From Antedon bifida (Eukaryota; Echinodermata; Crinoidea; Comatulida; Antedonidae): a DNA stretch of 64,000 bases. The stretch spans positions 868,001 to 932,000 of the forward strand of contig OY727096.1 of assembly GCA_963402885.1 (NCBI GenBank), in the 5' to 3' direction. Of the stretch, positions 1,403 to 35,376 are shown piece by piece; the first letter of the stretch is position 1, and every line of letters begins with the position of its first letter. Below the pieces are notes generated by a model. That model ran no database searches. It worked only from the letters and a program-made list of their open reading frames with translations, and was not told the origin of the DNA. The position numbers and the translations under genes are program-made.

Positions 1403-1416
1403 TTCTAATTTGTTGT

Positions 1417-1448
1417 GGCTAATTGATTCGTGATTGAGATGAAACACT
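1417..1448 (-). promoter_or_regulatory. Orphan copy of the FReD upstream motif
   Basis: This segment carries the core TTCGTGATTGAGATGAAAC that is otherwise found only upstream of the seven FReD genes. No leader exon, TATA box or FReD exon lies to its left. It is fused directly to sequence that normally sits downstream of a FReD 3' end. It is best read as the scar of a lost unit at the left array boundary. Confidence 0.6.
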
Positions 1449-1698: not shown

Positions 1699-3817
1699 TT
1701 ATGGTGCTCTTTTAATCATCATCACTGTCTTCTTGAGACTGTAATAATGACCCTTGAAATGAAACCAAACAATGCCATTATGAGTAGAAGAAGATCCTGG
1801 TGTAAGGTAAAGCCCATTCAGGTTTGATTCAGCACAGGACTTGTACCACCAAGCACCTTTGAAATGCTCAGCACAGTTAAGTGTTGAATACACATCATTG
1901 TCTCTATCGTATGTTGTAAATTGTTGACCATTGTGGTATGCCAAAGAATCACCTAAACAAACAAAATATTATATCTTCTTTAAGTTTACAGCATACATAC
2001 AGTTTGTTTAATAGAATGGAGAAAATGAATACTGTATATGCGATGATAAAATGGTAAAATGATACAATACACCCAATGAGTGTTTTAATTATTTATATTT
2101 TTACATTTACATCCTGTTTTAGGGGATTCTAATTTTGTTTTAAATCATAACAATTTTTTCAAAGATAGTGCTCTTGTTATTAGGCTTCTTATATTCTATA
2201 CATTATACAATATGGTTATTTATTTTACTATATAATAATATTTTGTTGGTCATTCAATGTTTGCTAATTATTATTATACTTTTTTTTGTGGGATGACCCA
2301 CATTTAATCATATTACATACAACATAAAATACAACTATGAAAATACAATGATAAACTTGACAGTTGCTAAAACATTAATACATGAAAGAATAAAAATGTT
2401 TTTCAATATTTCATTTGTAATTTTATGTTATTTTCCGTCTACTGTATCTTAATTATTCTTTCTTTTAATTCAAGTATACTTTCAATACAAATGCACTGAT
2501 TTCCAAAAAAACAATGAAAATGAAAGAGTATGATAAAAAACGTTTATACATGCTGGTACATAATTAGATACAACATGGATTCTTATGGTATGTTGAATTT
2601 CCTGGGCTGTAAGCTTGTTTTAACAATTTATCCCAGTCAATGTTCTTATCATTTAACTCGGTATTATATTCAGTTATTATATAAAGTGATAAATGCAACA
2701 ACAACAAAGCGCACAGTGTGTGTTAGTCTATTTTTATTGCAAGGCAGAAAGGTGTAGCTGGCCTACAAAGAAAAATAATAATGTTAGTTCTTTGTTTACT
2801 TGAAATGGGTTTTTAGTGTAAAAATTGATTGAATGTACTAACCTGCAGTTCCTGTGTATCCACTGATTGTCAAATCATAGTTAGAATCCTCAGTATCAAT
2901 ACGAAAGTGAGAATATCTTGCAAACTTCATTACATTCAAGTGATCTGTCAACTCTACTAATAGCTCATAATCACCATCAAATGTTATACGGTTGATCTTT
3001 TCATTACCAAGCCAGAACTCTGAGTGGACATTTCCAAAACCCTTTTTGAAGTTGGCCCAATTGCGGTAGAAATCTTCCGAACCATCCTGTCTTCGTTGTA
3101 TCACCTGGAAAACAAAGAAACTTTACAAAACAGCAGTGGACAATTTATCTTGTAAACTTGATCAAAATTATAGTTTAATAGTTAAGTATAATTATAGATG
3201 AAAAGAAAAGAAATCTTTGCATTTTTTCATTGCTTTTATTAATATTGCTTACTGTCCATCCGCCATCTTTCCTCATGTCACAGTAGACCATAAACTTTGG
3301 CCCTCCATCATTTGGCTCTATCACATAATCACCACTTTGAGCAGAAGGATCATTTTCCAAAATGTCTCCACAATCTCTCATAAGACACTTATCTAAATAA
3401 TATACAAAATATTATACAATTCTTTAAACTAAAAATATTAGTTGGTACTTTTATGATTTGGCCAACTTTGTACTCCTTAATTTTGTTTATTTTCTTCCTA
3501 ATTGTTTAGTAGTATCATTTAATTTTAATAAATTATACAAGATAGTCTCTTTACTAGGTCCATTAAAGTGCTTTAAACAATAAAAAAAAGTGTAAGATTT
3601 AATTTAATTAGGTTTATAGGACAGCTACAAAAATTGTCCACTAGATGACACATTTCTCTTTAATTAAGATACATTTCTACTCTTCTGACCCGTTTCTTAC
3701 CAGCTGTATAGAGTCATTCTACTTACTTCTAGAAGGACATCCACAATCATCTTCTGAACAGCAGGCTGAAGCCATCACCACCAACATACAGCCAATTACT
3801 AACATTCTGCAATCCAT
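1699..3817 (-). CDS. FReD 1: secreted fibrinogen-related (ficolin-like) protein
   Basis: Predicted secreted lectin of the fibrinogen C-terminal domain family, 248 aa. Coding exons on the minus strand: 3727-3817, 3253-3392, 2843-3104, 1699-1952. The sum is 747 nt, with introns of phase 1, 0 and 1 and GT-AG borders. Residues 1-18 form a signal peptide, followed by a short Cys-rich segment (CCSEDDCGC). The fibrinogen domain runs from about residue 37 to the end: C38/C68 pair, the hallmark GGWTVIQRR at the exon 2/3 join, calcium loop D180-x-D182, C191/C204 pair and the signature WWYKSCAESNLNG. There is no collagen or coiled-coil segment. Family members bind acetylated or other microbial sugars; that role here is inferred. 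An acceptor at 3854-3855 joins exon 1 to the leader exon 4581-4630. Confidence 0.9.
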
Positions 3818-4580
3818 TCTGTATCACACTTGAATGCTCCTCACACAATATAACTGACAACAGAAGAGCAAACAACAAATGCAATTCTTATATCTTAAAT
3901 TGAAGATAGTTGATGGGAATTTTCCTTTATTTTCTATCATAATTTGATTTTAGAAAGTTAGGCATATTTTTGCAGACTGAATACTGAATACTCAAAAGCA
4001 TTATCATATAAAATAATAATAGAAATTCTTCTTAAAGATTTATTAATACAATTAAAAACAGATATACATATAAACAATTAAAGCAATTAAAAAATCGAAT
4101 ACACACACACACAATGAAAACAAAAATTATTACACAAAAACTTAAAAAAGATACAATTTAGAAGTTAAAATTTGACAAAATGCATAAAAAGCTTAAAAAG
4201 TTGTAGTTTAAAAAGTAGATACAATTTGGAAAATATGATAAAATGCATAAAATGTTATTGTTTTTAGTAATAATGTAATAAGAATCACAATATGAATGAT
4301 AAAAATATTAATATTTGTTTTGTTTCAAACGCACATTCGACATAAGCCTTATGGGGATTTTAAAAGCCCAAGTGAATAGTACTGTAAATAAAATGATACC
4401 CATCATTGTTACATACAAGAGAAATATTATTGTTATTTTCCAATTCATTATCTTTTCAAGAGAATACTGATTTTAACCAATCACAAGCTTTAGAAAGTCA
4501 CAAAATATTCCAGTGTATCTTTTGCAATTTTAAGCTGTCAATAGACTTAATTAATGTACCAATAGAAATGTAATACTTAC

Positions 4581-5008
4581 AACTGTATGTTCAATGTTCT
4601 CTACACTTCAGCTGAAAGATGAATCTATCTGACAATGCAATGTTGGAACACCTCTCTTTTATGGAGATTGTTTGGAGAACAACCCAGATGTTTTCTAACC
4701 AAATCTTTTCAACTAAAATGTTTATTTATGTAATCTGAATGTTACAAATTGCATTATGCTGAACAATATTTGAATATCATTTAAGTTTGTTTGAATATTT
4801 TTGATAATTTGTTTAGCTAATTGGTTCGTGATTGAGATGAAACTCTTTTTATGAAAACATAAGACAGGATTGGGTTTTCCCAACTACTAATTGGTTCGTG
4901 ATTGAGATGAAACACTTGCTATTGTTCAAGACAGAAGTGGATATTTGTGGTTTTTTAAATTTTTATTTGTAGTAGCTAACTGGTTCGTGAATGAGATTAA
5001 ACACTTTA
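4581..5008 (-). promoter_or_regulatory. FReD 1 promoter and leader exon
   Basis: The TATA-like CATAAAAG reads on the minus strand at 4663-4656. A TCAG initiator-like A is at 4630. The untranslated leader exon 4630-4581 has no ATG and ends at a GTAAGT donor. Three copies of the array-specific upstream motif lie at 4815-4844, 4884-4917 and 4974-5008, about 150-350 bp upstream of the TATA box. Confidence 0.75.
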
Positions 5009-6764: not shown

Positions 6765-8838
6765 TTATGTTGCTCTTTTAACCATCATCACTGTCTTCTT
6801 GAGACTTTCCCACTTGTTCTTGAAATGATACCAATGTATGCCAGTATAAGTAGAAGGAGATCCTGGTGTAAGGTAAAGCCCATTCAGGTTTGAATGAGTA
6901 CAACCGTTGTACCACCAAGCACCTTTGTTATGGTCAGCACAGTTAAGTGTTGAATGTGGATCATTGTCTCTGTCATATGTTGTAAATTGTTGACCATTGT
7001 GCAACGCCAAAGAATCACCTACACAAACAAGATATTAGATACATTATTCAAATACAGTTAACAGGTTTTTTCTTCTACTGTATAAAGTATAGAAACAATT
7101 ATATACGATATAAAATGATTTACAATAAACCCAATGAGTTTTTTGATTCATTTTGTTTATTTATTTTTCTTTAAACTTGTATGCCAGAGATTTACATCCT
7201 GTTTTAGGGGATTTTTAATTCTTTAATCATGGAACTTTTTTTTCATAGATAGTGTTCTTGTTTTTTTTTCTATGAATTATACAATATGGTTATTTTATTG
7301 TTAAGTAAAGTAAAACATGAATAAATTCTAAATTTCTACAAATAAATAAAAAAGAAAATTCAACAAGGAGACTGTTTCCAATCCTATACCATTATGGGAA
7401 ACTTGACTGGAGAGTTTTGCACAATCAGTTTACTGAACATTTGCCAACTTAATTTAATACATTACAACATTTGTTCCTCATTTTCTATTTCATTTGTGGT
7501 AAAGATTCAATTGTTTGTGTCTCACTAATACAAAATGGTGTAGAGCCTTAAAATTAAATTGAAGAATCTTCACCATACAATGTATTACACCCTAGTCAAT
7601 GTTCTTATTTAAGTCAGTATTGTCAGTATATAAATGCAACAACAAAGACACCATGCAGTATGTGACAATAGACCATTTTTATTGCAAGGTACAAATGATG
7701 TATGCCTACAAAAAAAATGTTTTGTGTTTTTAGTGTAAAAAGGTAACCTAACCTGCAGTTCCTGTGTATCCACTGATTCTCATAAGATAGTTCGACATCT
7801 CACTACCAACACGAAAGTGAGAATATCTTGCAAACTTCATTTCATCCAAGTGGTCCGTCATCTCTACTAAGAGCTCAAAATCCCCATCAGATGTTATACG
7901 GTTGATCTTTTCGTTACCAAGCCAAAACTCTGAGTGCACATTTCCAAAACCCTTTTTGTAGTTGGCCCAATCGCGGTAGAAATTTTCCGAACCATCGTCT
8001 CTTCGTTGTATCACCTGGGATAAAAAATAAAAACTTTACACAACAGCTGAACTACAAAAAAACAACAATCAAAATCTAAATAGCACATAATCTATTTCAA
8101 ACTAAATGAGTGACAAATTTAAAGTTATTTATTTTTTGGCTCTCATTAATTTTGGACAATTTATCTATCTTATAAAGCTGTAATTTAATAATTAAGTATA
8201 ATTACAGAAGAGAAATCTTTTTTATTGCTTATTAAAGTTACTTACCGTCCATCCGCCATCTTTCCTCATGTCACAGTAGACCATAAACTCAGGTTGTTCG
8301 TCATGTGGCTGTATCAAATAATCACCACTTTGAGCAGAAGGATCATTTTCCAAAATTTCACCACAGTCCCTTAAAAAACACTTCTCTGAAAATATGAAAT
8401 ATTATCAATTTTCTAAAACTAGAAAATAACTTGCGTTTCATTTATTTACTTAGATATAGTTTGGTACTTTTATTCTTTGGCCAACTTTGTACTCCTTACA
8501 ATTTTTTCTGTTTTCTCTCTCTCTAATTATTAAAAAAAAATCATTTATTAAATTATACAAGATAGTTGTTACTAGATCCATTGTATACTTTAAACATTTT
8601 TATTTAAAAAATGCAAGAGGTAAGATTTAGAGTTTAATCGTCTAATAGATGACATAGATGTCCAATAGTTGACACATTTCTCTTTCTACAGTTTGTACCA
8701 TTTCTACTCTGCTGACCCGTTTGTTACCAACTGTTTAGAGTCATTCTACTTACTTCTAGAAGGGCATTTAAAATCGTCATCAGCAGCAGCAGCCATCACA
8801 ACCAACATACAGCCAATTACTAACATTCTGCAATCCAT
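6765..8838 (-). CDS. FReD 2: secreted fibrinogen-related (ficolin-like) protein
   Basis: Same four-exon design as FReD 1, 246 aa. Coding exons: 8754-8838, 8246-8385, 7753-8014, 6765-7018 (741 nt). The signal-peptide exon is the short type ending AAAADDDFKCPSR, which lacks the paired cysteines of FReD 1. Exon 2 has [11 protein letters not shown] and QPHDEQPEF. Exon 3 is the [18 protein letters not shown] type, almost the same as FReD 6. The loop exon has DRDND for calcium, C/C pair and WWYNGCTHSNLNG, so the residue after the second cysteine is Thr. Intron 3 belongs to the class seen in FReD 5. The 5' acceptor of exon 1 is less clear than in the other genes because the sequence just upstream has diverged. 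Confidence 0.9.
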
Positions 8839-9358: not shown

Positions 9359-9728
9359 AACTGTATGTTCAATGTTCTCTACACTTCAGCTGAAAGATGA
9401 ATCTATCTGACAATGCAATGTTGGAACACATCTCTTTTATGGAGATTGGTTGGGGAACAACCCAGATGTTCTCAAACCCTTTCAACTGAAAGGTTTAATA
9501 GTAGGATTTCGCATAATCTCAAAGTTACAAATTATATTATACTGAACAATATTTGAATGTCATATAAGTTTGTTTGGATATTTTGTTATAAATGTATTGG
9601 TAATTGATTCGTGAATGAGATAACACTTTGTAATTTGCTTTTTGTAAACACTGAAGACAGAATTATCTTTGTTAGGACCTTTTAATTTGCTTAGCCAATT
9701 TGTTCGTGAATGAGATTAAACACTTTAG
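9359..9728 (-). promoter_or_regulatory. FReD 2 promoter and leader exon
   Basis: CATAAAAG on the minus strand at 9441-9434, initiator-like A at 9408, leader exon 9408-9359 with GTAAGT donor. Only two upstream motif copies are seen (9601-9630, which has lost bases in the GATGAAAC part, and 9693-9728), the fewest and most degenerate in the array. Confidence 0.7.
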
Positions 9729-10646: not shown

Positions 10647-13015
10647 TTATGGTGCTCTTTTAACCATCATCACTGTCTTCTTGAGACTTTCCCACTTGTT
10701 CTTGAAATGATACCAACATGTGCCAGTATGAGTAATAGATCCTGGTGTAAGGTAAAGCCCATTCAGGTTTGAATAAGCACAGTTTTTGTGCCACCAAGCA
10801 CCTTTGTAGTAGTCAGCACAGTTACTACTACTCTTATCATTGTCTCTATCGTACGTTGTAAATTGTGCACCATTGCTGTGTGCCAAAGAATCACCTAAAC
10901 AAACAAAATATTATGTCATCTTTAAGTTTACAGCATACATACAGTTTTTTGAATAGAATGGAGAAAATTAATACTATATATGCGATTTAAAATGATACAA
11001 TATACCCAATGAGAGTTTTGATTAATTATGTTTTTACATTTAAATCCTGTTTTAAGGGATTTAAATTTTTTCAAAGATAGTGCTCTTGTTATTAGGCTTC
11101 TTATATTCTATACATTATACAATATGGTTATTTATTTTACTATATACTTATAATAGTTTGTTGGTCATTCAATGTTTGCTTATTATTATACTTTTTTTTC
11201 TTTTTAATGGGGATGACCCACATTTAATCATATTACAAACAACATAAAATACAACTATAAAAATACAATGATAAACTTGACATTACTAAAACATTAATAC
11301 ATTGGAAATGTTAAAATAATAATGAAAGAATAAAAATGTTTTTCAATATTTCATTTGTAATTTTATGTTATTTTCTTTTAACTGAAGTATACTTTCTTTA
11401 TACATGCTGGTACAATTAGATACAACATGATAACAACCATTTTGGTTATTCAAAGAGTCACCTACACAAACAAGATATTAGATACATATTCAAATACAGT
11501 TTTTTCCTTCTACTGTATAAAGTATAGAAACAATTATATACATTAAACCCAATGAGTTTTTTGTTTAATATTTGTTTATTTATTTTCCAGAGATTTACAT
11601 CCTGTTTTATGGAATTTTTAATTCTTTAGTCATGGAACTTTTTTTCAAAGATAGTGTTTTTTTGTCTATGAATTATATTTTATTGTTAAGTAAACTACTA
11701 ACATGAATAAATTCTAAATTTCTACAAATTGAACAAGACTGTTTCCATTGCTATACCATTATGGGAAACTTGACCCGATTCATAACCCCCCCCCCCCCCC
11801 CTGGCTACGTGCCTGTGAAGGTATACTAACCTGCAGTTCCTGTGTATCCACTGATTTTCAAAGTATACTTAGAGTCCTCTGTTCCAATACGGAAGTGAGA
11901 ATATTTTGCGATCTTCATTTCATCCAAGTGGTCAGTCATCTCTACTAAGAGCTCAAAACTGCCATCAAATGTTATACGGTGTATCTGTTCATTACCAAGC
12001 CAGAATTCTGAGTTCACGTTTCCAAAACCCTCTTTGTATTCTGTCCAATCACGGTAGAAATCGACCAATCCATCTTCTCTTCTTTGTATCACCTGATGAA
12101 GACAAAAAAACAAAGGAATTACAGTTGTACACAGCAGTCAAAATCAAAACAAACACATTTTTAAAAAATAGGAAAAAACCAAACAGGTGCAACTAAAAAC
12201 AACTTACTAACAATCTACAATTACAAAACCTACAAGAAATTGACCAACTGCAAACATTTTCAACATTTCAATAAAAACCAGTGTTATAATTATGTAGTTT
12301 ACATTTAAAAGAACTTATAGACAAATTGAAATTATAAATTTCACAAGGCAATTTGTTCCAAAAACGAGTAACATGCGAATATTAAAGTGAACCAGCAGTA
12401 GATGAATTCATGTCATTGTCATGTCATTGCTTTTACTTACTGTCCATCCGCCATCTTTCCTCATGTCACAGTAGACCATTAACTCGGGTCCTCCGTCGTG
12501 TGGCTGTATCAAATAATCACCACTTTTAGCAGAAGAATCATTCTCCAAAATTTTACTACAATCCTGCATAATTCCCTTCTCTAAATATACAAAATAAATC
12601 AATTTCTAACAAAATAACTTTCATGTATTTACTATATAGTTTGGTACTGCTTTGGCCAACTTTGTACTGCTTACAATTGTTCCTGTTTTCTCTTTAATTA
12701 TTTAGTAATATCATTTATTAAATTATACAAGATAGTTTTTACTAGATCCTTTGTATACTTTAAACATTTTTATTACAAAAATTCAAGAGGTAAGATTTAG
12801 AATTTAATCGTTGTAATAGATGACATAGATGTCCAATAGATGACACATTTGTCTTTTTACAGTTTGTACCATTTCTACTCTGCTTACCCGTTTCTTACCA
12901 GCTGTTTAGAGTCATGCTACTTACTTCTAGAAGGGCATTCACAATCATCTTCTGGGCAGCAGGCAGCAGCCATCACAACCAACATACAGCCAATTAATAA
13001 CATTCTGCAATCCAT
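10647..13015 (-). CDS. FReD 3: divergent, chimeric fibrinogen-related protein
   Basis: 246 aa from coding exons 12925-13015, 12441-12580, 11831-12092 and 10647-10894 (741 nt, frame kept). It is the most divergent member. Exon 1 is the Cys-rich type (CCPEDDCEC). In exon 2 the usual KC before the domain is KG, and the start of the domain reads MQDCSKILEND. Exon 3 has EDGLVDFYRDWTEYKEG and EQIHRITFDG. The loop reads DRDNDKSSSNCADYYKG followed by WWHKNCAYSNLNG. The His in WWH departs from the standard fibrinogen-domain signature, which expects an aliphatic or aromatic residue there. Intron 3 contains a leftover exon-4 edge and a 15-16 base C run (about 11787-11802), consistent with fusion of two ancestral genes. 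The acceptor at 13052-13053 joins the leader exon. Confidence 0.88.
11450..11465 (-). pseudogene. Remnant exon-4 splice edge inside FReD 3 intron 3
   Basis: The bases CAAAGAGTCACCTACAC match the 5' end of exon 4 and its acceptor in FReD 2 and FReD 5, and the ~90 bases that follow match their intron 3. The rest of that exon is gone. The usable exon 4 of FReD 3 lies 550 bp away at 10647-10894 and is followed by the other intron class. This is a recombination or deletion scar. Confidence 0.65.
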
Positions 13016-13786: not shown

Positions 13787-14315
13787 AATTGTATGTTCAA
13801 TGTTCTCTACACTTCAGCTGAACGATGAATCTGACAATGCAATGTTGGAACACATCTCTTTTATGGAGATTGGTTGGAGAACAACCCAGATGTTTTCAAA
13901 CCAAAACTATTCAACTAAAAGGTTTATTTATGTAATCTAAATGTTACAAATTACATTATACTGAACAATATTTGAATATCATATAAGTTTGTTTGAATAT
14001 TTTTGATAAGTTGTTTAGGTAATTGGTTCGTGAATGAGATGAAACTCTTTTTGTGAAAACATAAGACAGGATTGGGTTTTCCTAACTACTAATTGATTCG
14101 TGATTGAGATGAAACACTTAGTAATTTGCTATTGGTCAAGACAGAAGTGGATATTTGTAATTTTTTTAATTTTTATTTGTAGTAGCTAATTGATTCATGA
14201 TTGAGATGAAACACTTAGTAATTTGCTATTGTTCAAGACAGAAGTTATTGTTTGTGGTTTTTATATTTTTATTTGTAGTAGCTAACTGGTTCGTGAATGA
14301 GATTAAACACTTTAG
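13787..14315 (-). promoter_or_regulatory. FReD 3 promoter and leader exon
   Basis: CATAAAAG on the minus strand at 13865-13858, initiator-like A at 13832, leader exon 13832-13787 (46 nt, 4 nt shorter than in FReD 1) with GTAAGT donor. Four upstream motif copies: 14017-14046, 14086-14120, 14184-14220 and 14280-14315. The third has TTCATGATT instead of TTCGTGATT. Confidence 0.72.
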
Positions 14316-16079: not shown

Positions 16080-19000
16080 TTATGTTGCTCTTTTAACCAT
16101 CATCACTGTCTTCTTGAGACTTTCCCACTTGTTCTTGAAATGATACCAATGTATGCCAGTATAAGTAGAAGGAGATCCTGGTGTAAGGTAAAGCCCATTC
16201 AGGTTTGAATAAGTACAGGACTTGTACCACCAAGCACCTTTGTTTTTGTCAGCAGCACAGTTACCACTACTCTTAATATCATTGTCTCTATCATATGTTG
16301 AAAATTGTTGACCATTGTGGTATGCCAAAGAATCACCTAAACAAACCAAATATTATGTCATCTTTAAGTTTACAGCATACATACAGTTTGTTTAATAGAA
16401 TGGAGAAAATGAATACTGTATATGCAATGTAAAATGATACAATATACCCAATGAGTGTTTTATTAGGTGATCATTTAGAATAAAATGATCACCTATTGTT
16501 ATTGTATAAAATCTTTATTATTTTTTTTCTTTTTATTGTTTCTGTACACTATTTTGTGTAACAATTATCTCAAAAAGTTTAATGTCAATGATTACAAAAA
16601 TTTCAGAATATCTTTCAAATAATATAACTTAATCCTAATAAGCTTTCCAGCGTGATCACTCATCCGTGACGACATTTATACGCCATTTTGCGAAATCACA
16701 TTATCAATCATATCTCCATAATTCATTATCACATATTAATGAAATTCACTACACGTAAACTTCAGATCAAGGGTAAAAATATTAGCAAATAAAAACGCAC
16801 GCACACGTAGTTTCATCACGTGATATCGCGCGTTAAAAATTTAAAACGCTCAAAATTAAGTTTTGATCAATTTAGAGCATGAATTAGGCCATTTGCGTGT
16901 TTCAAAAAATTACTGCGCAAAAATGCGTTTTTGCGCGCGCGATACTTAAAAAGCGTAAAAAATATGAATTTTTTTTACAAATCTCATTCTACTCACCATC
17001 CTTAGTACATTCACCAAATTTGAGTCAGTTCCGACTTAAAATAACGCTATACGAGCACGTTAAAAATGACAAAATGCGCACATTAATTTTACAAAAGTTC
17101 TGAAAATGGTGAAAAATAGGTCTTTTTTAAAATGAAAATAATTCTTCAGAATGCAAGATGACCCCCGATTTTTTTAACTTATTCTGGAAGCCATTGAGTT
17201 GTAGATATGAATTCATGTACACATTTTACGTACAAAATGTTTTGACGTCATCAAATGGCCACTTGAATTTAAAAATTAGGATTTGTTATCTTTTTGTGTA
17301 GATTATCCCATTCAACAGAGCGCATCTTGGTTATGTGTGCTCGAATTTCGCACAACTTTCAGTATGTGCTTGCTTAATTAATTATCTTTATCATGAATTG
17401 ACACTATCTTCATTTTAATGACGTCATCACGCGTAAAAACTTGAATAACGTAGGCCGTGTAATTTCACCTTCGCAGTAAATTTGAATATCTTACAGCTCT
17501 TCAGAATTGAAGGTTACCTTGATGATTATAATTTATTATGAAAGCTGATGAAATGTAGATATTAATTCATATAAAAATTAAGCCTATCGGATGTTGTGAC
17601 GTTAACATATGGCCAGTTGAAGTGAAAAAGTAGTTTTTTCATATTTTTCGTCAAAGTTATACACAATTCAAAGAGCGCGCACAGCGCTTCTACGTGCCAA
17701 ATTTTTTTCCAAATCTTATATTTTTTTGCTCAATTAATTATCTTTCGAAATTGTCATCTTAAAGTTTAGTTTGATAACGTCATCATGCCAAAAAATTAGA
17801 ACATGTGTGTCCCGTAATTTCACCTATGCTACACTGTATATAGATATACAGTACTGTATATACTGTACATATTGTATATGGCATATAAGCACAACTCAGC
17901 ACTATAAGCATATCATAGGATGACATACATCAACATTTTCCGATCGTATGTTAACGTACGTGCATGAAAAAAAAAATTAATTTCAGTAAAATGATAAAAA
18001 TGATCACCTATAATTCGTCAAAGTGACGAATTAAATTCTAGTTTATATTTTTACATTTACATCCTGTTTTAGGGGATTCTAATTTTGTTTTAAATCATAA
18101 CAATTTTTTCAAAGATAGTGCTCTTGTTATTAGGCTTCTTATATTCTATACATTATACAATATGGTTATCATTATTTTACTATATAATAATATTTTGTTG
18201 GTCATTCAATGTTTGCTTATTATTATACTTTTTTTTCTTTTTAATGGGGATGACCCACATTTAATCATATTACATACAACATAAAATACAACTATGAAAA
18301 TACAATGATAAACTTGACATTACTAAAACATTATTACATTGGGAATGTTAAGAAAATAATGAAAATGAAAGAATAAAAATGTTTTTAAATATTGCATTTG
18401 TAATTTTATGTTATTTTCCATCTACTGTATCTTAATTATTCTTTCTTTTAACTTAAGTATACAAATATACTGATTTCCAAAAACAACAATGAAAATGAAA
18501 GAGTATGATAAAAAACGTTTATACATGCTTAGTACATAATTAGATACAACATGGATTCTTATGATGAGGACATCAGAAAATCAAAAATTCAAATTAAGGT
18601 ATGTTAACTGGACTGTAAGCTTGTTTAAACCATTTATTCCAGTCAATGTTCTTATCATTTAACTCAGTATTATATTCAGTTATTATATAAAGTGATAAAT
18701 GCAACAACAAAAAACAAAAAAGCAAACAGTGTGTGTTAGTCTATTTCTATTGCAAGGCAGAAAGGTGTAGCTGACCTACAAAGAAAAATAATAATGTTAC
18801 TTCTTAGTTTACTTGAAATGGGTTTTTAGTGTAAAAATTGATTGAATGTACTAACCTGCAGTTCCTGTGTATCCACTGATTGTCAAATCATAGTTAGAAT
18901 CCTCAGTATCAATACGAAAGTGAGAATATCTTGCAAACTTCATTACATTCAAGTGATCTGTCAACTCTACTAATAGCTCAAAATTTCCATCAAATGTTAT

Positions 19001-20457: not shown

Positions 20458-20985
20458 AACTGTATGTTCAATGTTCTCTACACTTCAGCTGAACGATGAA
20501 TCTGACAATGCAATGTTGGAACACCTCTCTTTTATGGAGATTGTTTGGGGAACAACCCAGATGTTTTCTAACCAAAACTATTCAACTAAAAGGTTTATTT
20601 ATGTAATCTGAATGTTACAAATTGCATTATGCTGAACAATATTTGAATATCGTATAAGTTTGTTTGAATATTTTTGATAATTTGTTTAGCTAATTGATTC
20701 GTGAATGAGATGAAACTCTTTTTGTGAAAACATAAGACAGGATTGGGTTTTCCCAACTACTAATTGATTCGTGATTGAGATGAAACACTTAGTAATTTGC
20801 TATTGTTCAAGACAGAAGTGGATATTTGTGGTTTTTATATTTTTATTTGTAGTAGCTAACTGGTTCGTGAATGAGATGAAACACTTAGTAATTTGCTATT
20901 GTTCAAGACAGAAGTGGATATTTGTGGTTTTTTTAATTTTTTATTTGTAGTAGCTAACTGGTTTGTGAATGAGATTAAACACTTT
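20458..20985 (-). promoter_or_regulatory. FReD 4 promoter and leader exon
   Basis: CATAAAAG on the minus strand at 20536-20529, initiator-like A at 20503, leader exon 20503-20458 with GTAAGT donor. Four upstream motif copies at 20688-20716, 20757-20790, 20854-20890 and 20952-20985. Confidence 0.74.
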
Positions 20986-23345: not shown

Positions 23346-25051
23346 TTATGTTGCTCTTTTAACCATCATCACTGTCTTCTTGAGACTGTAATAAATAGTT
23401 GCCTTGAAATGATACCAATGTATGCCAGTTTTAGTAGAAGAAGATCCTGGTGTAAGGTAAAGCCCATTCAGGTTTGAAAAACCACAGGACGTGTACCACC
23501 AAGCACCTTTCCAAGACTCAGCACAGTTCTTTGAATATGGATCATTGTCTCCATCATATGTTGTAAATTGTTGACCATTGTGCCACGTCAAAGAGTCACC
23601 TAAACAAACAAAATATTAGATACATTATTCAAATACAGTTTTTTTCTTCTACTGTATAAAGTATAGAAACAATTATATATGATGTACAATGAGTTTTTTG
23701 ATTCATTTTTTTTTTATTTATTTTTTTAAAAACTTGTATGCCAGAGAATTACATCCCGTTTTAGGGGATTTTTAATTCTTTAATCAGGGAACTACTAACA
23801 TGAATAAATTCTAAATTTCTACAAAAAAAATAAAGAAGAAAATTCAACGAGACTGTTTCCATTGCTCTACCATTATGAGAAACTTGACTGGAGAGTTTCA
23901 CACAATCAGTTCACTAAACAATTTGCCAACTTAATTTGTTCCTCATTTTCTATTTCATATGTGGTAAAGATTCAATTTTTTATGTCTCACGTGACAATAG
24001 ACCATTTTTATTGCAAGGTACAAATGGTGTATGCCAAAAAAAAATGTTTTGTGTTTTTAGTGTAAAAATTAATTGAAGGTACACTAACCTGCAGTTCCTG
24101 TGTATCCACTGATTGTCAAAGTATAGTTAGAATCCTCACTACCAACACGAAAGTGAGAATATCTTGCAAACTTCATTTCATCCAAGTGGTCAGTCATTTC
24201 TACTAATAGCTCAAAATTTCCATCAAATGTTATACGGTTGATCTTTTCGTTACCAAGCCAGAACTCTGAGTGAACATTTCCAAAACCCTTTTTGTAGTTG
24301 GCCCAATCACGGTAGAAATCTTGCGAACCATCCTCTCTTCGTTGTATTACCTGGAAAACAAAGAAACTTTATAAAACAGCTGTGGACATAGTTGTATAAT
24401 TATAGATGAAAAGAAAAGAAATCTTTGCATTTTTTCATTGCTTATTATATTACTTACTGTCCATCCGCCATCTTTCCTCATGTTACAGTAGACCATAAAC
24501 TCAGGTTCTCCGTCATGTGGCTGTATCAAATAATCATCACTTTGAGCAGAAGGATCATTTTTCAAAATTTCACCACAGTCCCTTAAAAAACACTTCTCTA
24601 AATATACAAAATAAATCAATTTTCTATTATGTATTTGTATTATGTATTCTAGTATGTATGTATGTATTTACTATATAGTTTGTTACTTGGGCCACCTTTG
24701 TACTGCTTACAATTGTTCCTGTTTTCTCTCTAATTAAATAGTAATATCATTTATTAAATTATACAAGTTTTTTTAAGTTTTTACTAGATCTATTGTATAC
24801 TTTAAACATTTTTATTACAAAAATTCAAGAGGTAAGATTTAGAATTTAATCGTCGTAATAGATGACATAGATGTCCAATAGTTGACAAATTTCTCTTTTT
24901 ACAGTTTGTACCATTTCTACTCTTCTGACCCGTTTCTTACCAGCTGTTTAGAGTCATTCTACTTACTTCTTGAAGGGCATTTAAAATCGTCGTCAGCAGC
25001 AGCAGCCATCACAACCAACATACAGCCAATTACTAACATTCTGCAATCCAT
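23346..25051 (-). CDS. FReD 5: secreted fibrinogen-related (ficolin-like) protein
   Basis: 246 aa from coding exons 24967-25051, 24458-24597, 24089-24350 and 23346-23599 (741 nt). Exon 1 is the short AAAADDDFKCPSR type. Exon 2 has [18 protein letters not shown] and YCNM where the others have YCDM. Exon 3 is a blend: [12 protein letters not shown] and [17 protein letters not shown]. The loop exon is distinctive: YDGDNDPYSKNCAESWKG, then WWYTSCGFSNLNG, so calcium ligands are D-G-D and the residue after the second cysteine is Gly. The segment before the C-terminal beta strand (ATIYYSLKK) also differs. Compact gene, with introns 3 and 2 of about 490 and 110 bp. Acceptor for the leader at 25088-25089. 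Confidence 0.9.
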
Positions 25052-25805: not shown

Positions 25806-26232
25806 AACTGTATGTTCAATGTTCTCTACACTTCAGCTGAACGATGAATCTATCTGACAATGCAATGTTGGAACACATCTCTTTTATGGAGATTGCTTGG
25901 AGAACAACCCAGATGTTTTCTAACCAAATCTTTTCAACTAAAAGGTTTATTTATGTAATCTGAATGTTACAAATTGCATTATGCTCAACAATATTTGAAT
26001 ATCATTTAAGTTTGTTTGAATATTTTTGATAAGTTGTTTAGCTAATTGATTCGTGATTGAGATGAAACTCTTTTTGTGAAAACATAAGACAGGATTGGGT
26101 TTTCCTAACTACTAATTGATTCGTGATTGAGATAAAGCACATTTGCTATTGTTGAAGACAGAAGTGGATATTTGTGGTTTTTATATTTTTATTTGTAGTA
26201 GCTAACTGGTTCGTGAATGAGATTAAACACTT
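25806..26232 (-). promoter_or_regulatory. FReD 5 promoter and leader exon
   Basis: CATAAAAG on the minus strand at 25888-25881, initiator-like A at 25855, leader exon 25855-25806 with GTAAGT donor. Three motif copies at 26040-26068, 26108-26140 (altered, GATAAAGC) and 26200-26232. Confidence 0.74.
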
Positions 26233-27806: not shown

Positions 27807-30013
27807 TTATGTTGCTCTTTTAATCATCATCACTGTCTTCTTGAGACTTTCCCACTTGTTCTTGAAATGATACCAATGTATGCCAGTATAAGTAGAAGGA
27901 GATCCTGGTGTAAGGTAAAGCCCATTCAGGTTTGAATGAGCACAGGTCTTGTACCACCAAGCACCTTTGTTGTAGTCAGCAGCACAGTTAAGTGTTGAAT
28001 GCACATCATTGTCTCTATCGTATGTTGTAAATTGTTGACCATTGTGGTATGCCAAAGAATCACCTAAACAAACCAAATATTATGTCATCTTTAAGTTTAC
28101 AGCATACATACAGTTTGTTTAATAGAATGGAGAAAATGAATACTGTATATGCAATGTAAAATGATACAATATACCCAATGAGTGTTTTATTTATGTTTTT
28201 ACATTTACATCCTGTTTTAGGGGATTTTAATTTTGTTTTAAATCATAACAATTTTTTCAAAGATAGTGCTCTTGTTATTGGACTTCTTATTTTCTATACA
28301 TTATACAATATGGTTATTTATTTTACTATATAATAATATTTTGTTGGTCATTCAATGTTTGCTTATTTAAATTATACTTTTTTCTTTTTAATGGGGATGA
28401 CCCACATTTAATCATATTACACACAACATAAAATACAACTATGAACATACAATGATAAACTTGACATTACTAAAACATTAATACATTGGGAATGTTAAAA
28501 AAATAATGAAAATGAAAGAATAAAAATGTTTTTAAATATTACATTTGTAATTTTATCTGCTGTATCTTAATTATTCTTTCTTTTAACTGAAGTATACTTT
28601 AAATACAAATGTACTGATTTCCAAAAACAACAATGAAAATGAAAGATTGTGATAAAAACGTTTATACATGCTGGTACATAATTAGATACAACATGGATTC
28701 TTTTGGTATGTTGAATTTCCTGGGCTGTAAGCTTGTTTTAACAATTCATCCCAGTCAATGTTCTTATCATTTAACTCGGTATTATATTCAGTTATTATAT
28801 AAAGTGATAAATGCAACAACAACAAAGCACACAGTGTGTGTTAGTCTATTTCTATTGCAAGGCAGAAAAGTGTAGCTGGTCTACAAAGAAAAATAATAAT
28901 GTTAGTTCTTTGTTTACTTGAAATGGGTTTTTAGTGTAAAAATTGATTGAATGTACTAACCTGCCGTTCCTGTGTATCCACTGATTCTCATAAGATAATT
29001 AGACATCTCACTACCAATACGAAAGTGAGAATATCTTGCAAACTTCATTTCATCCAAGTGGTCTGTCATTTCTACTAATAGCTCAAAATCACCATCAGAT
29101 GTTATACGGTTGATCTTTTCATTACCAAGCCAAAACTCTGAGTGCACATTTCCAAAACCCTTTTTGTAGTTGGCCCAATCGCGGTAGAAATTTTCCGACC
29201 CATCGTCTCTTCGTTGTATCACCTGGGATAAAAAATACACAACAGCTAATATAAAAAAGACAACAATCAAAATCTAAATACCACATAATCTATTTCAAAC
29301 TGAATGAGTGATTAAAGTTATTTATTTTTTGGCTCTCATTAATTGTGAACTTTATCAAAGCTGTAATTTAATAGTGAAGTATAATTATAGAATAGACATC
29401 TCTGCTTTTTACTTTTTATAATTTTATACATACTGTCCATCCGCCATCTTTCCTCATGTCACAGTAGACCATAAACTCAGGTTGTTCGTCATGTGGCTGT
29501 ATCAAATAATCACCACTTTGAGCAGAAGGATCATTTTCCAAAATTTCACCACAGTCCCTTAAAAAACACTTCTCTAAATAATATACAAAATATTATTCAT
29601 TTATTTAAACTAAAAATGCCTAACATACTTTAGTTTGGTACTTTTATGCTTTGGCCAACTTTGTACTCCTTAATTTTGTTTGTTTTCTTCCTAATTGTTG
29701 TAGTATCATTTAATTTAAATAAATTATACTAAGATAGTCTCTTTACTAGGTCCATTAAAGTGCTTTAAACGTTTACAAAAAAGTGTAAGAGGTAAGATTT
29801 AATTTAATTAGGTTTATAGGACAGCTACAAAAATTGTCCACTAGATGACACATTTCTCTTTAAGATACATTTCTACTTTTCTGACCCGTTTCTTACCAGC
29901 TGTATAGAGTCATGCTACTTACTTCTAGAAGGGCATCCACAATCATCTTCTGGGCAACAGGCAGAAGCCATCACAACCAACATACAGCCAATTACTAACA
30001 TTCTGCAATCCAT
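27807..30013 (-). CDS. FReD 6: secreted fibrinogen-related (ficolin-like) protein
   Basis: 249 aa from coding exons 29923-30013, 29434-29573, 28961-29222 and 27807-28063 (750 nt). Exon 1 is the Cys-rich type (CCPEDDCGC). Exons 2 and 3 match FReD 2 ([25 protein letters not shown]), yet intron 3 and exon 4 match FReD 4, and the exon 1/promoter region matches FReD 1. It is therefore a mosaic of at least three paralogue types. The loop reads [19 protein letters not shown], then [13 protein letters not shown]. The exon 2 donor is GTATGT rather than GTAAGT/GTAAGC used elsewhere. Acceptor for the leader at 30050-30051. Confidence 0.9.
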
Positions 30014-30753
30014 TCTGTATCACACTTGAATGCTCCTCACACAATATAACTGACAACAGAAGAGCAAACAACAAATGTTATAGCAATTCTTATATCTTAA
30101 ATTGAAGATAGTTGATGGGAATTTTCCTTTATTTTCTATCATAATTTGATTTTAGAAAGTTAGGCATATTTTTGCAGACTGAATACTGAATACTCAAAAG
30201 CATTATCATATAAAATAATAATAGAAATTCTTCTTAAAGATTTATTAGTACAATTAAAAACAGATATACATATAAACAATTAAAGCAATTAAAAAATCGA
30301 ATACACACACACACAATGAAAAAAAAAATTATTGCACAAAAACTTAAAAAAGATACAATTTAGAAGTTAAAATTTGACAAAATGCATAAAAAGCTTAAAA
30401 AGTTGTAGTTTAAAAAGTAGATACAATAAAATGCATAAAATGTTATTGTTTTTAGTAATAATGTAATAAGAATCACAATATGAATGATAAAAATATTAAT
30501 ATTTGTTTTGTTTCAAACGCACATTTGACATTTTAAAAGCCCAAGTGAATAGTACTGTAAATAAAATGATACCCATCATTGTTACATACAAGAGAAATAT
30601 TATTGTTATTTTCCAATTCATTATCTTTTCAAGAGAATACTGATTTTAACCAATCACAAGCTTTAGAAAGTCACAAAATATTCCAGTGTATCTTTTGCAA
30701 TTTTAAGCTGTCAATAGACTTAATTAATGTACCAATAGAAATGTAATACTTAC

Positions 30754-31187
30754 AACTGTATGTTCAATGTTCTCTACACTTCAGCTGAAAGATGAATCTA
30801 TCTGACAATGCAATGTTGGAACACATCTCTTTTATGGAGATTGCTTGGAGAACAACCCAGATGTTTTCTAACCAAATCTTTTCAACTAAAATGTTTATTT
30901 ATGTAATCTGAATGTTACAAATTGTATTATACTGAACAATATTTGAATATCATTAAAGTTTGTTTGAATATTTTTGATAATTTGTTTAGCTAATTGATTC
31001 GTGAATGAGATGAAACTCTTTTTGTGAAAACATAAGACAGGATTGGGTTTTCCTAACTACTAATTGGTTCGTGATTGAGATGAAACACTTAGCAATTTGC
31101 TATTGGTCAAGACAGAAGTGGATATTTGTGGTTTTTATATTTTTATTTGTAGTAGCTAACTGGTTCGTGAATGAGATTAAACACTTT
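30754..31187 (-). promoter_or_regulatory. FReD 6 promoter and leader exon
   Basis: CATAAAAG on the minus strand at 30836-30829, initiator-like A at 30803, leader exon 30803-30754 with GTAAGT donor. Three motif copies at 30988-31016, 31057-31090 and 31154-31187. Confidence 0.74.
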
Positions 31188-32742: not shown

Positions 32743-34284
32743 TTAAGTTGCTCTTTTAACCATCATCACTGTCTTCTTGAGACTCTCTAGATTCTTGAAA
32801 TGATACCAAAATATGCCAGTATAAGCAGAAGTAGATCCTGGTGTAAGATAAAGCCCATTCAGGTTTGAATAAGCACAGTACTTGTACCACCAAGCACCTT
32901 TGTTATTGTCAGCAGCACAGTGTATACCACCAACCTTATCATTGTCTCTATCATATGTTGAAAATTGTAGACCATTGCTGTATGCCAAAGAATCACCTAA
33001 ACAAACCAAATATTACATCATACATGGTACATAATTAGATACAACATGGATTTGTATTACATGTCGAAAATCCAAATTAAGGTATGTTGAATTTCCTGGG
33101 CTGTAAGCTTGTTTAAACCATTTAATTCCAGTCAATGTTCTTATCATTTAACTCAGTATTATATTCAGTTATTATATAAAGTGATAAATGCAACCATAAA
33201 AAAGCGCACAGTGTGTGTTAGTCTATTTCTATTGCAAGGCAGAAAGGTGTAGCTGACCTACAAAGAAAAATAATAATGTTACTTCTTAGTTTACTTGAAA
33301 TGGGTTTTTAGTGTAAAAATTGATTGAATGTACTAACCTGCAGTTCCTGTGTATCCACTGATTGTCAAATCATAGTTAAAATCCTCAGTATCAATACGAA
33401 AGTGAGAATATCTTGCAAACTTCATTACATTCAAGTGATCTGTCAACTCTACTAATAGCTCAAAATTTCCATCAAATGTTATACGGTTGATCTTTTCGTT
33501 ACCAAGCCAGAACTCTGAGTGGACATTTCCAAAACCCTTGTAGTTGGCCCAATTGCGGTAGAAATCTTCCGAACCATCCTCTCTTCGTTGTATCACCTGG
33601 AAAACAAAGAAACAGCAGTGGACAATTTATCTTGTGAACTTTATCAAAACTATAGTTGAATAGTTAAGTATTATAGATGAAAAGAAAAGAAATCTTTGCA
33701 TTTTTTCATTGCTTATTAATATAGCTTACTGTCCATCCGCCATCTTTCCTCATGTCACAGTAGACCATAAACTTTGGTCCTCTATCATTTGGCTCTATCA
33801 CATAATCACCACTTTGAGCAGAAGGATCATTTTCCAAAATGTCTCCACAATCTCTCATAAAACACTGATCTAAATAATATACAAAATGTTATCCAAATTT
33901 TTTAAACTAAAAATATTAGTTGGTACTTTTATGCTTTGGCCAACTTTGTACTCCTTAATTTTGTTTATTTTCTTCCTAATTGTTTAGTAGTATCATTTAA
34001 TTTAAATAAATTATACAAGATAGTCTCTTTACTAGGTCCATTAAAGTGCTTTAAACATTTACAAAAAATTGTAAGATTTAATTTAATTAGGTTTATAGGA
34101 CAGCTACAAAAATTGTCCACTAGATGACACATTTTAAGATACATTTCTGCTCTTCTGACGCGTTTCTTACCAGCTGTATAGAGTCATTCTACTTACTTCT
34201 TGAAGGGCATTTAAAATCGTCATCAGCAGCAGCAGCCATCACCACAACCAACATACAGCCAATTACTAACATTCTGCACTCCAT
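32743..34284 (-). CDS. FReD 7: secreted fibrinogen-related (ficolin-like) protein
   Basis: 246 aa from coding exons 34197-34284, 33730-33869, 33338-33596 and 32743-32996 (741 nt). It is the most compact gene; intron 3 is only 341 bp through loss of most of the usual intron. Exon 1 is the short AAAADDDFKCPSR type with two changes: Met-Glu at the start instead of Met-Asp, and one extra Val in the signal core. Exons 2-3 match FReD 4, apart from one codon lost in exon 3 (NYKGFGN instead of NYKKGFGN). The loop reads DRDNDKVGGIHCAADNNKG, then WWYKYCAYSNLNG; it has the most altered residues around the calcium site. Acceptor for the leader at 34321-34322. Confidence 0.9.
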
Positions 34285-34940
34285 TCTGTATCACACTTGA
34301 ATGCTCCTCACACAATATAACTGACAACAGAAAAGCAAGAACAAATGTTAAATCACATCTTATTTCATAAATTCATGAGGTAGTTGATGGGAATTTTCCT
34401 TTATTTTCTATCATAATTTGATAAAACACAAAATTGTATTTTTTAGAAAGTTAGGCATATTTTTGCAGACTGAATACTCAAAAGCTTTATTTGTCCATTA
34501 TCATATAAAATAATAATAGAAATTCTTCTTAAAGATTGGTAAATATATATTAGTACAATTAAAAACAGATATATATAAAATATAAACAAACAATTAAAAA
34601 ATAGAATACACACACATTATTGCACAGATACAATCTAGAAGTAAAAAAATACGATAAAAAGCTTAAAAAGTTGTAGTTTAAAAAGTAGATACAATTTAGA
34701 AGTTAAAAGTTAAAATACGATAAATGCATAAAACTCTTAAAATTATTAAAAATGTTATTGTTTTTAGTAATCAGGATGAGAATCAAAATGTGAACGATAA
34801 AAATATTAATATTTGTTTTTAATACTGATTTTAACCACAAGTTTTAGAAAGTCACAAAATATTCCAGTGTATCTTTCGCATTTTAGAATTTTAAGTTGTC
34901 TTAGACTTAATTAATGTACCAATAGAAATGTAATACTTAC

Positions 34941-35376
34941 AACTGTATGTTCAATGTTCTCTACACTTCAGCTGAAAGATGAATCTATCTGACAATGCAA
35001 TGTTGGAACACCTCTCTTTTATGGAGATTGTTTGGGGAACAACCCAGATGTTTTCTAACCAAATCTATTCAACTAAAAGGTTTATTTATGTAATCTAAAT
35101 GTTACAAATTACATTATACTGAACAATATTTGAATATCGTATAAGTTTGTTTGAATATTTTTGATAATTTGTTTAGCTAATTGATTCGTGAATGAGATGA
35201 AACTCTTTTTGTGAAAACATAAGACAGGATCGGGTTTTCCTAACTACTAATTGGTTCGTGATTGAGATGAAACAATTAGTAATTTGCTATTTTTTAAGAC
35301 AGAAGTGGATATTTGTGGTTTTTTAATTTTTATTTGTAGTAGCTAACTGGTTCGTGAATGAGATTAAACACTTTAG
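34941..35376 (-). promoter_or_regulatory. FReD 7 promoter and leader exon
   Basis: CATAAAAG on the minus strand at 35023-35016, initiator-like A at 34990, leader exon 34990-34941 with GTAAGT donor. Three motif copies at 35175-35203, 35244-35275 and 35341-35376. Confidence 0.74.

Follow-up and report, generated by a model that had tools for sequence, protein, structure and literature searches.

A tandem array of seven apparently secreted fibrinogen-domain genes in Antedon bifida with protein change concentrated in one exon

Expansions of fibrinogen-domain (FReD) proteins are common among invertebrates, where a role in recognition is the usual explanation for their diversity. The acetyl pocket of the domain is described in the cited passages as formed by Tyr405, His415, Tyr431, Trp443 and Ala432 in FIBCD1 numbering (PMC3908420; PMC1242226), and the equivalents of the first four in TL5A, a soluble horseshoe crab protein (PMC3908420), are Tyr210, His220, Tyr236 and Tyr248. 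The FREP/FBN family of Anopheles gambiae is reported to number 53 genes, some of them in tandem, and it has been proposed that altered pocket residues diversify its carbohydrate recognition (PMC1242226); the mosquito gene FBN32 carries population-genetic signs of positive selection (PMC3516473). Gastropod FREPs (Biomphalaria) are described as diversified by duplication, gene conversion and exon shuffling (PMC10875847), with positive selection on those of B. glabrata as cited in PMC8678459, and the FBG domains of snail sFReDs are reported to be more diverse than those of FREPs, which was read as broader recognition (PMC7588048). A nemertean survey lists 14 FReD proteins without collagen, most without any other domain, and for one nemertean FreD-C member expression in blood and induction by Vibrio are described (PMC9835746). 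Expanded, positively selected families of this kind, as the cited accounts of FBN32 and the Biomphalaria FREPs illustrate, are already known; what is new here, judged against the literature consulted, is the mosaic make-up of the copies and the concentration of protein change in exon 4.

The genes described here (G1 to G7) lie in a 64-kb window, the whole stretch of DNA that was analysed. An earlier note, made from the letters of this DNA, had described seven genes on one strand in about 34 kb, each with the same exon phases and an intact frame, and this description holds: coding exons span 1699-34284, all on the minus strand, with TATA-like sites reaching to 35030 and upstream elements to 35368 (Table 1). 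Coordinates of the coding exons are based on tblastn and spliced gene models for all seven genes. Each G1 exon peptide returned seven strong copies (tblastn, E up to 10, 64-kb window), whose exons can be aligned along their whole length, and every gene has four coding exons with intron phases 1-0-1 (7/7) and GT-AG borders (21 of 21 introns), giving full-length frames of 248, 246, 246, 249, 246, 249 and 246 aa for G1 to G7 after splicing. Across the 64 kb, the four G1 exon peptides detected no further copies, fragments or pseudogenes, every match beyond the seven copies having E >= 0.24, so the statement that no pseudogene is present is true of the window at the tblastn sensitivity used. That absence argues only weakly for selection to keep all copies and was dropped as proof of it: several copies are either of very recent origin or lately homogenised, G4 and G7 being 0.4-0.8% apart from intron 1 to exon 3.

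A leader exon was found in 7/7 genes, as the note had said; the TATA box was borne out in part, in that each gene has a TATA-like site, but one that reads CCATAAAAG, not TATAAAAG. Upstream of every gene lie two to four copies of a 26-bp element, and because the promoters are shared in this way all seven genes may be expressed together. The ends of the array seem to lie inside the window. At the left edge, 360 bases of the G1 3' flank were compared with G6 and G7 and their homology is gone in the final 120, and a lone promoter element is found; at the right edge a spacer relic adjoins a transposon.

Table 1. Positions in the 64-kb window of the exons, putative promoter features and edge sequences of the array
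Feature	Position	Strand
G1 coding exon 4 (P-subdomain, pocket, stop)	1699..1952	-
G1 coding exon 3	2843..3104	-
G1 coding exon 2	3253..3392	-
G1 coding exon 1 (leader + Cys-rich tail, CC type)	3727..3817	-
G1 putative TATA-like site + 5' leader exon	4581..4670	-
G1 upstream 26-bp elements, 3 copies	4817..5001	-
G2 coding exon 4	6765..7018	-
G2 coding exon 3	7753..8014	-
G2 coding exon 2	8246..8385	-
G2 coding exon 1 (A type)	8754..8838	-
G2 putative TATA-like site + 5' leader exon	9359..9448	-
G2 upstream 26-bp elements, 2 copies	9600..9720	-
G3 coding exon 4	10647..10894	-
G3 coding exon 3	11831..12092	-
G3 coding exon 2	12441..12580	-
G3 coding exon 1 (CC type)	12925..13015	-
G3 putative TATA-like site + 5' leader exon	13787..13872	-
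G3 upstream 26-bp elements, 4 copies	14019..14307	-
G4 coding exon 4	16080..16336	-
G4 coding exon 3	18856..19117	-
G4 coding exon 2	19254..19393	-
G4 coding exon 1 (CC type)	19721..19811	-
G4 putative TATA-like site + 5' leader exon	20458..20543	-
G4 upstream 26-bp elements, 4 copies	20690..20979	-
G5 coding exon 4	23346..23599	-
G5 coding exon 3	24089..24350	-
G5 coding exon 2	24458..24597	-
G5 coding exon 1 (A type)	24967..25051	-
G5 putative TATA-like site + 5' leader exon	25806..25895	-
G5 upstream 26-bp elements, 3 copies	26042..26227	-
G6 coding exon 4	27807..28063	-
G6 coding exon 3	28961..29222	-
G6 coding exon 2	29434..29573	-
G6 coding exon 1 (CC type)	29923..30013	-
G6 putative TATA-like site + 5' leader exon	30754..30843	-
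G6 upstream 26-bp elements, 3 copies	30990..31181	-
G7 coding exon 4	32743..32996	-
G7 coding exon 3	33338..33596	-
G7 coding exon 2	33730..33869	-
G7 coding exon 1 (A type)	34197..34284	-
G7 putative TATA-like site + 5' leader exon	34941..35030	-
G7 upstream 26-bp elements, 3 copies	35177..35368	-
Single 26-bp promoter element, left array edge (possible relic of another promoter)	1419..1444	-
Spacer relic, right array edge (pieces 36058-36330 and 36560-36698, 87-92% identical)	36058..36698	-

All seven proteins have the same layout: a leader followed by a short tail and then a single fibrinogen domain. The hydrophobic leader, M(D/E)CRML(V/L)IGCMLVV in 7/7, was judged by eye and may be a cleaved signal peptide; the proteins are probably secreted. 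The tail (about 10-20 residues with 2-5 cysteines in all seven sequences) may support disulfide-linked multimers through its cysteines, and because exon 1 encodes two tail types, CC in G1, G3, G4 and G6 and A in G2, G5 and G7, two kinds of assembly are suggested. Three of the seven whole proteins, G1, G3 and G7, were scanned against Pfam, where Fibrinogen_C is matched at E 6.1e-73, 1.7e-67 and 7.4e-62, values that exclude chance for the FReD identity; the PF00147 match is full-length (245.7, 227.9 and 209.5 bits, gathering cut-off 22) and is the sole domain above its own cut-off, matches to COLFI (fibrillar collagen C-terminal domain) in two of the three falling below theirs. Pfam gave no IgSF domain in these three, and the tails of all seven are too short for one. 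Read in all seven sequences, only the short Cys-rich tail precedes the FReD, with no collagen-like Gly-X-Y region and no room for an N-terminal coiled coil. The absence of collagen and coiled coil that the note had stressed is therefore upheld by the tails of all seven and by Pfam on three, but a lack of collagen is not special, as the nemertean survey shows. Separately, when viral contigs were scanned with the frame of one exon 3, a single weak locus came up, whose best segment (query residues 46-88) was 44% identical.

Protein change is concentrated in exon 4, and exons 1-3 are under purifying selection. The comparison of dN/dS across the seven copies that the note had proposed (seven sequences from one haplotype) gave M0 omega 0.32 for exons 1-3 (2 delta lnL 40.5 against omega = 1), where M2a improved on M1a by 2 delta lnL of 1.3. 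For exon 4 the improvement was 31.8, with 23% of sites at omega 5.9, in codon fits whose models were without recombination inside the exon. This signal persists on the star tree and other trees, with gap columns removed and in both halves; null simulations reached a maximum of 4.6 (n=26).

The favoured exon 4 sites cover 7 of 11 published FIBCD1/TL5A ligand contacts (hypergeometric P 4.6e-4), a list of contacts that is this analysis's own choice; with the S3 residue Lys390, invariant here, they cover 7 of 12 (P 9.9e-4). Contact columns hold a mean of 3.36 different residues, compared with 1.51 elsewhere in exon 4, and 0 of 85 rotations performs as well. The pocket codons of main interest are columns 170, 186, 188, 196, 204, 207, 223, 227 and 234. 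At the position of Tyr405 (column 196) the seven proteins read FNYNWNN, with Tyr in 1/7; at His415 (column 206) ATATGAA, with His in 0/7; at Tyr431 (column 222) TTTTTTA, with Tyr in 0/7; and at Ala432 (column 223) HYHYKYY, with Ala in 0/7. The Trp443 position (column 234) reads HKKKTK-, with Trp or Tyr in 0/7, and because it adjoins a gap its alignment is the least certain of the pocket columns. The pocket disulfide cysteines (columns 191 and 205) are invariant in 7/7, as are the loop aspartates (columns 182 and 184), which we take to be the calcium binders of the calcium loop. The predicted proteins thus do not preserve the classical acetyl-pocket residues, but they retain the pocket cysteines and loop aspartates; the scaffold and the FReD cysteines are likewise conserved in all seven. 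The note had contrasted their design with that of ficolins; this stands as regards collagen, but the main difference, the acetyl-pocket residues that are not kept, had been missed.

We give a probability of roughly 0.74 to the reading that the cluster would be a germline repertoire, small in size, of recognition proteins that are secreted and FReD-only, in which the scaffold is fixed, the pocket is non-canonical and diversified, and copies exchange segments. The earlier interpretation is partly supported as a whole; its main inference, a secreted recognition repertoire, is given real support by change at homologues of ligand contacts, by constraint on exons 1-3 and by the 50 of 86 exon 4 columns that are invariant. 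The altered S1 region would bind different targets, probably glycan, and selection from varying targets such as microbes may maintain the diversity. A recognition repertoire outside immunity, whether for reproduction or self-recognition, for choosing symbionts or in secreted mucus or gland products under diversifying selection, might be expected to leave the same pattern, no feature of the window links the genes to defence, and FReD proteins are reported in allorecognition and neuronal development (PMC9835746); several invertebrate FReD proteins are, however, tied to innate immunity in the cited accounts (PMC1242226; PMC2429915; PMC9835746), and we regard a non-immune role as rather unlikely.

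There is less reason to favour neutral or nearly neutral concerted evolution, in which conversion homogenises promoters, introns and exons 1-3 and exon 4 escapes and drifts under relaxed constraint. The copies are strongly mosaic (28 of 30 tree tests rejected at 0.05), M0 omega for exon 4 as a whole is 0.92 and so not above 1, and the M2a signal is lost (0.41) when gap and multi-nucleotide columns are removed (22 of 86, 64 kept). That filter also strips the most diverse sites, and the exons were therefore fitted again under a model with multi-nucleotide change included, in which omega > 1 is still supported (2 delta lnL 8.07 for exon 4 and 0.00 for exons 1-3; 0 of 136 null simulations reach 8.07). 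Against drift in a relaxed exon, exon 4 is bimodal, with about half of its sites at omega near 0; its change falls on ligand contacts; and its mean dS (0.141) is below that of exons 2-3 (0.225 and 0.238), which means that this segment is not older. Among G2, G4, G5, G6 and G7, 8 of the 10 pairs differ more in exon 4 than in the 3' flank (P < 0.01), and the count is 8 of 21 overall; in G6/G7 the difference is 13.8% in exon 4 against 1.1% in the flank. The other 13 of 21 pairs, which do not exceed the flank at P < 0.01, comprise 11 that include G1 or G3, both with diverged flanks, together with G2/G4 and G2/G6. In 17 of 21 pairs the divergence of exon 4 does not exceed that of intron 3. In a separate comparison, deletions had left several pairs without homologous intron 3 tails, and it was restricted to the 3' flank and to those pairs whose tails could be aligned. 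Neutral or nearly neutral concerted evolution appears quite improbable.

Segments have been swapped among the seven copies. G4 and G6 show 18 differences inside one stretch of about 100 bp with identical stretches on either side, which could be a single conversion tract, a point that weighs against the selection reading. A bolder extension of the repertoire reading, which we hold to be doubtful, is that the FReD pocket would act as a germline hypervariable site: on a fixed scaffold, with an exon 4 pocket without acetyl binding, pocket segments of about 100 bp (as between G4 and G6) might be swapped among copies, perhaps from a larger genomic pool, and yield new specificities without new genes. 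Near-identical stretches such as those of G4/G7 and of G1/G6, which differ by 0.6% in the leader intron, might also be expected if some copies were haplotypes or collapsed duplicates misplaced in tandem by the assembly, but such duplication is unlikely as a full explanation because exon 4 is distinct in every copy; intron lengths and flanks are individual too, copies match different partners in different segments and the array ends are recognisable, which leaves an artefact very improbable.

The closest PDB match for G1 is ANGPTL2 (E 8.7e-62), ahead of tenascin-R, FIBCD1 (E 1e-55) and ficolin-2 (E 2.2e-55), with TL5A at E 1.7e-50, and an Ala follows the second pocket cysteine in ANGPTL2 and in 4/7 proteins. 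Angiopoietins and ANGPTLs are defined by an N-terminal coiled coil. Angiopoietin-like or developmental signalling ligands, with the variable patch as a receptor-binding surface, are nonetheless scarcely credible here, since the short tail leaves no space for that coiled coil and a seven-fold duplication with a diversifying surface would be unusual for signalling ligands.

The favoured reading, that of a recognition repertoire, rests on an apparently complete array of seven genes in which change is concentrated in one exon, and there at the ligand surface, and the rest of the unit is more uniform and reshuffled. This pattern makes the repertoire hypothesis testable by binding assays on seven closely similar proteins. 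The array also suggests that conserved acetyl binding need not be retained in FReD expansions.

The seven proteins share with TL5A and FIBCD1 the domain itself, the loop aspartates and the pocket disulfide cysteines, and differ from both in the absence of the acetyl-pocket residue set; FIBCD1 is in addition a membrane protein, whereas these are apparently secreted. Ficolins have the same recognition domain, but the present proteins are without their collagen-like region and differ in pocket residues. Snake venom multigene families are alike in mode of change only, the radical replacement of short exon segments in the cited accounts (PMC2711939; PMC2474615); those proteins are unrelated, and the array bears no sign of venom. 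Nemertean FreD-C and snail sFReD proteins are likewise FReD proteins, many without a second domain, but the portions of those accounts cited here are without pocket-level analysis. The mosquito FREP/FBN genes resemble the array in their FReD proteins and tandem clusters; most FBG domains of mosquitoes reportedly have the funnel residues, in contrast to a full set in 0/7 here, and the reported FBN32 signal is of sweep type in one gene, whereas G1 to G7 show pocket-focused change between copies. Gastropod FREPs, also FReD proteins with diversified copies, carry IgSF domains that these proteins are without, and their FBG domains are described as relatively conserved (PMC7588048), the reverse of what is seen in this array.

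The array combines intact genes with a constrained scaffold, a diversified pocket region and exchange between copies. Each of the seven minus-strand fibrinogen-domain genes (G1–G7, numbered left to right) has four coding exons of 85–91, 140, 259–262 and 248–257 bases, with intron phases 1, 0 and 1 throughout, GT–AG borders at all 21 introns and a protein of 246–249 residues, which bears out an earlier note that described seven same-strand genes with common exon phases and full-length frames. The same note saw no pseudogene in the cluster, and this also holds: by tblastn each exon peptide of G1 found seven strong copies in the 64-kb window, where all remaining matches had E >= 0.24 and no further exon copy or fragment emerged. 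The proteins consist of a hydrophobic leader (judged by eye), a short tail of type CC.EDDC.CPSR (G1, G3, G4 and G6) or DDDFKCPSR (G2, G5 and G7) and a single fibrinogen domain; in the three of seven whole proteins scanned, Fibrinogen_C spans nearly the full Pfam profile at 245.7, 227.9 and 209.5 bits (cut-off 22 bits), and no other Pfam domain exceeded its cut-off. The tail has no room for collagen or coiled-coil domains, which the earlier note had described as lacking. Among solved chains ANGPTL2 is closest to G1 by sequence (E 8.7e-62), tenascin-R, FIBCD1 (1e-55) and ficolin-2 (2.2e-55) come next, and tachylectin 5A (TL5A) gives E 1.7e-50. G3 (10647–13015) lacks one tail cysteine (Gly at alignment column 33) and has an additional cysteine at column 227 in the pocket region. 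N-glycosylation sequons occur at residue 44 of G3 and residue 150 of G5.

Exon 4, which encodes the P-subdomain, the pocket and the stop, carries the signal of diversification. Mean pairwise dN/dS (NG86) is 0.34, 0.43, 0.33 and 1.12 in exons 1 to 4, with exon 4 at a dN of 0.157 (vs 0.079–0.096 in the other exons) and a dS of 0.141 (vs 0.225–0.277). In codon models implemented for this analysis, exons 1–3 gave an omega of 0.32 without supporting any sites above 1 (2 delta lnL 1.3). For exon 4 the M0 omega was 0.92, not distinguishable from 1 (2 delta lnL 0.11), but M2a was preferred to M1a (2 delta lnL 31.8) and placed 23% of the sites at omega 5.9. This signal persisted under a star tree (64.3) and the exon 1–3 tree (54.8), without gap columns (33.7) and also without their neighbors (37.1), and in either half of the exon (16.1 and 15.9), while 26 null simulations reached a maximum of 4.6. 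It was gone (0.41) once gap and multi-nucleotide columns were removed, with 64 of 86 columns left. Because this control spoke against the signal, and because multi-nucleotide changes are a known source of false selection signals (available text of PMC10329266), models with double and triple changes were fitted. Under these, omega above 1 was still preferred in exon 4 (8.07, with 31.5% of sites at 3.2), a value that none of 136 null simulations reached (largest 6.15), and there was no such preference in exons 1–3 (0.00); the double-change rate was 0.28–0.38 in exon 4 vs 0.026 in exons 1–3, roughly tenfold. On the per-site dN/dS test suggested in the earlier note, both kinds of model support exon 4 sites above 1 and the column-removal control does not.

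Among G2, G4, G5, G6 and G7, which have similar 3' flanks, 8 of 10 pairs are more divergent in exon 4 than in the flank (P < 0.01), for instance G4/G7 (11.0% vs 1.9%) and G6/G7 (13.8% vs 1.1%). In those pairs the coding exon outdiverges its non-coding surroundings, the opposite of the usual pattern. The count across all pairs stays at 8 of 21 (P < 0.01) because the flanks of G1 and G3 have diverged, and exon 4 is more divergent than intron 3 in 4 of 21.

Ligand contacts were mapped through a G1–FIBCD1 alignment (FIBCD1 residue number = chain position + 235), the set being the exon 4 residues named as ligand-touching or site-lining in the accessible parts of PMC3908420 and PMC10825690: Lys381 (entered through TL5A Arg186), His396, Glu398, Tyr405, Arg412, Asn413, Cys414, His415, Tyr431, Ala432 and Trp443. 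Seven of these 11 lie within the 16 columns (of 86 in exon 4) for which omega above 1 is favored (P 4.6e-4), nine within the 21 columns of the multi-nucleotide model (P 2.6e-5), and contacts average 3.36 different residues per column vs 1.51 in the remaining exon. None of 85 rotations through exon 4 equaled the real set on any of three measures, and when the set was slid from -3 to +3 variability was highest in register. Two residues of S3 were excluded: Lys390, which is invariant in G1–G7 (column 179), and Arg297, which is not in exon 4. The overlaps become 7/12 and 9/12 with Lys390 added (P 9.9e-4 and 8.9e-5), and 6/10 and 8/10 (P 2.3e-3 and 1.3e-4) without Lys381, whose density is described as poor in the FIBCD1 text available. 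The acetyl funnel of TL5A comprises Tyr210, His220, Tyr236 and Tyr248 (PMC1242226, in part). From G1 to G7 the corresponding columns read FNYNWNN, ATATGAA, TTTTTTA and HKKKTK-, and the Ala432 column at the pocket base reads HYHYKYY. The pocket cysteines (columns 191 and 205) and two loop aspartates (columns 182 and 184), which would bind calcium as in the family, are invariant. Judged from the alignment, the scaffold is kept in G1–G7 and the classical acetyl site is not, and the variable residues would form one surface.

The six segments compared (leader intron, intron 1, exons 2+3, intron 3, exon 4 and 3' flank) give conflicting trees, 28 of 30 foreign trees being rejected at 0.05 in approximately unbiased tests; only exon 4 failed to reject two of them, those from the leader intron and from intron 3. 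G6 matches G1 and G5 in its leader intron (99% identity), G2 in exon 2 (99%), G1 and G4 in intron 3 (96%) and G7 in the 3' flank (99%). Since the trees disagree and the partners of G6 change by segment, the copies are mosaics whose segments were exchanged by conversion or unequal crossing-over. G4 and G6 share an identical 120-base end of intron 3. Within exon 4, 18 of 103 bases differ in the part running from 10% to 50% of its length, against 1 of 154 elsewhere in it; past the exon, the counts are 0 of 56 directly after it and 6 of 120 over the following two bins. This pattern favors segment exchange, at least in that pair, a reading qualified by the fact that the divergent stretch also holds the variable loop. 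The exon 4 pattern may have arisen through point changes favored one at a time, or through short stretches copied from other paralogues and then retained.

A leader exon and TATA box had been ascribed to every gene, and a TATA-like CCATAAAAG site with a leader exon of constant layout was indeed found upstream of all seven, 84–88 bases from site to splice donor; the leader introns measure 485–735 bases, lengths that depend on where we placed their 3' end. A 26-bp element, TTTMATCTCAWTCACGAAYCARTTAG, occurs 23 times in the window (<=3 mismatches) vs 0.00 expected, and 22 of these lie upstream of the TATA-like sites (3, 2, 4, 4, 3, 3 and 3 in G1–G7). The G2 promoter region is an outlier at 75–79% identity to the other six, which share 92–97%. 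Tandem repeats of 96–97 bp (~2.4 copies) that contain the element lie upstream of G3 (14089–14320) and G4 (20760–20992), and because these are the four-element genes, element number may vary via repeat number.

Around the array (table), the Harbinger-like DNA transposon appears to sit within the right-hand spacer because spacer homology ends at 36698 and restarts at 40606–40629 (24 nt). Two of the four Sec6 ORFs score above the curated cut-off and two below, one at E 0.0071. The lipoyl-domain exon is probably part of a dihydrolipoamide acetyltransferase gene. The inverted-repeat pairs and a 21-nt tandem motif that recurs (TGCCCAAATATGGTAGTGATA and its relatives) are perhaps small non-autonomous transposons.

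Features of the window outside the seven genes
Feature	Position	Strand	Remarks
Tandem repeats (two)	471–655 and 1180–1404		left of array; 61-nt unit x3, exact; 20-nt G-rich unit x ~11
Lone TTTMATCTCAWTCACGAAYCARTTAG element, 26 bp	1419–1444		near left edge of array
DNA transposon	36698–40599		apparently within right-hand spacer of array
Terminal inverted repeats	36698–36770 and 40527–40599		of transposon; 73 nt, 99% complementary
DDE_Tnp_4 ORF	38183–39028	+	in transposon
MADF ORFs	39092–39295 and 40138–40440	-	in transposon
Open frame, 245 codons	43573–44310	-	sole Pfam match WSN, E 0.037, below cut-off
Exocyst Sec6 (EXOC3) gene exons	51216–55091	-	4 ORFs matching Pfam Sec6
Inverted-repeat pairs	53819–54163, 56782–57341 and 60831–61375		arms 56–75 nt
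Lipoyl-domain exon	61843–62040	+	Biotin_lipoyl, E 2.6e-13

We infer that the proteins would be secreted, given the leader judged by eye, and may be joined into multimers via their tail cysteines, each copy with its own ligand; common promoters would lead to co-expression of G1–G7, and changing targets could exert the selection. Immunity is the likeliest setting by analogy with reports on such proteins, as far as their available text goes (PMC1242226, PMC2429915, PMC3516473, PMC9835746); a reproductive, allorecognition or other role instead would fit the same data.

In the open-access literature searched, to the extent that its text was available, neither quantitative proof of change focused on the pocket of the fibrinogen-related domain (FReD) between tandem copies nor a FReD array with the acetyl site missing in every copy was found. 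Related systems are described in the accessible portions of several papers. Tandem fibrinogen-domain families are known in mosquitoes, where altered pocket residues were suggested to widen recognition (PMC1242226) and one family member shows signs of positive selection (PMC3516473). In snails, positive selection is cited for FREPs (PMC8678459), which diversify through conversion and exon shuffling (PMC10875847), and the FBG domains of sFReDs are diverse (PMC7588048).
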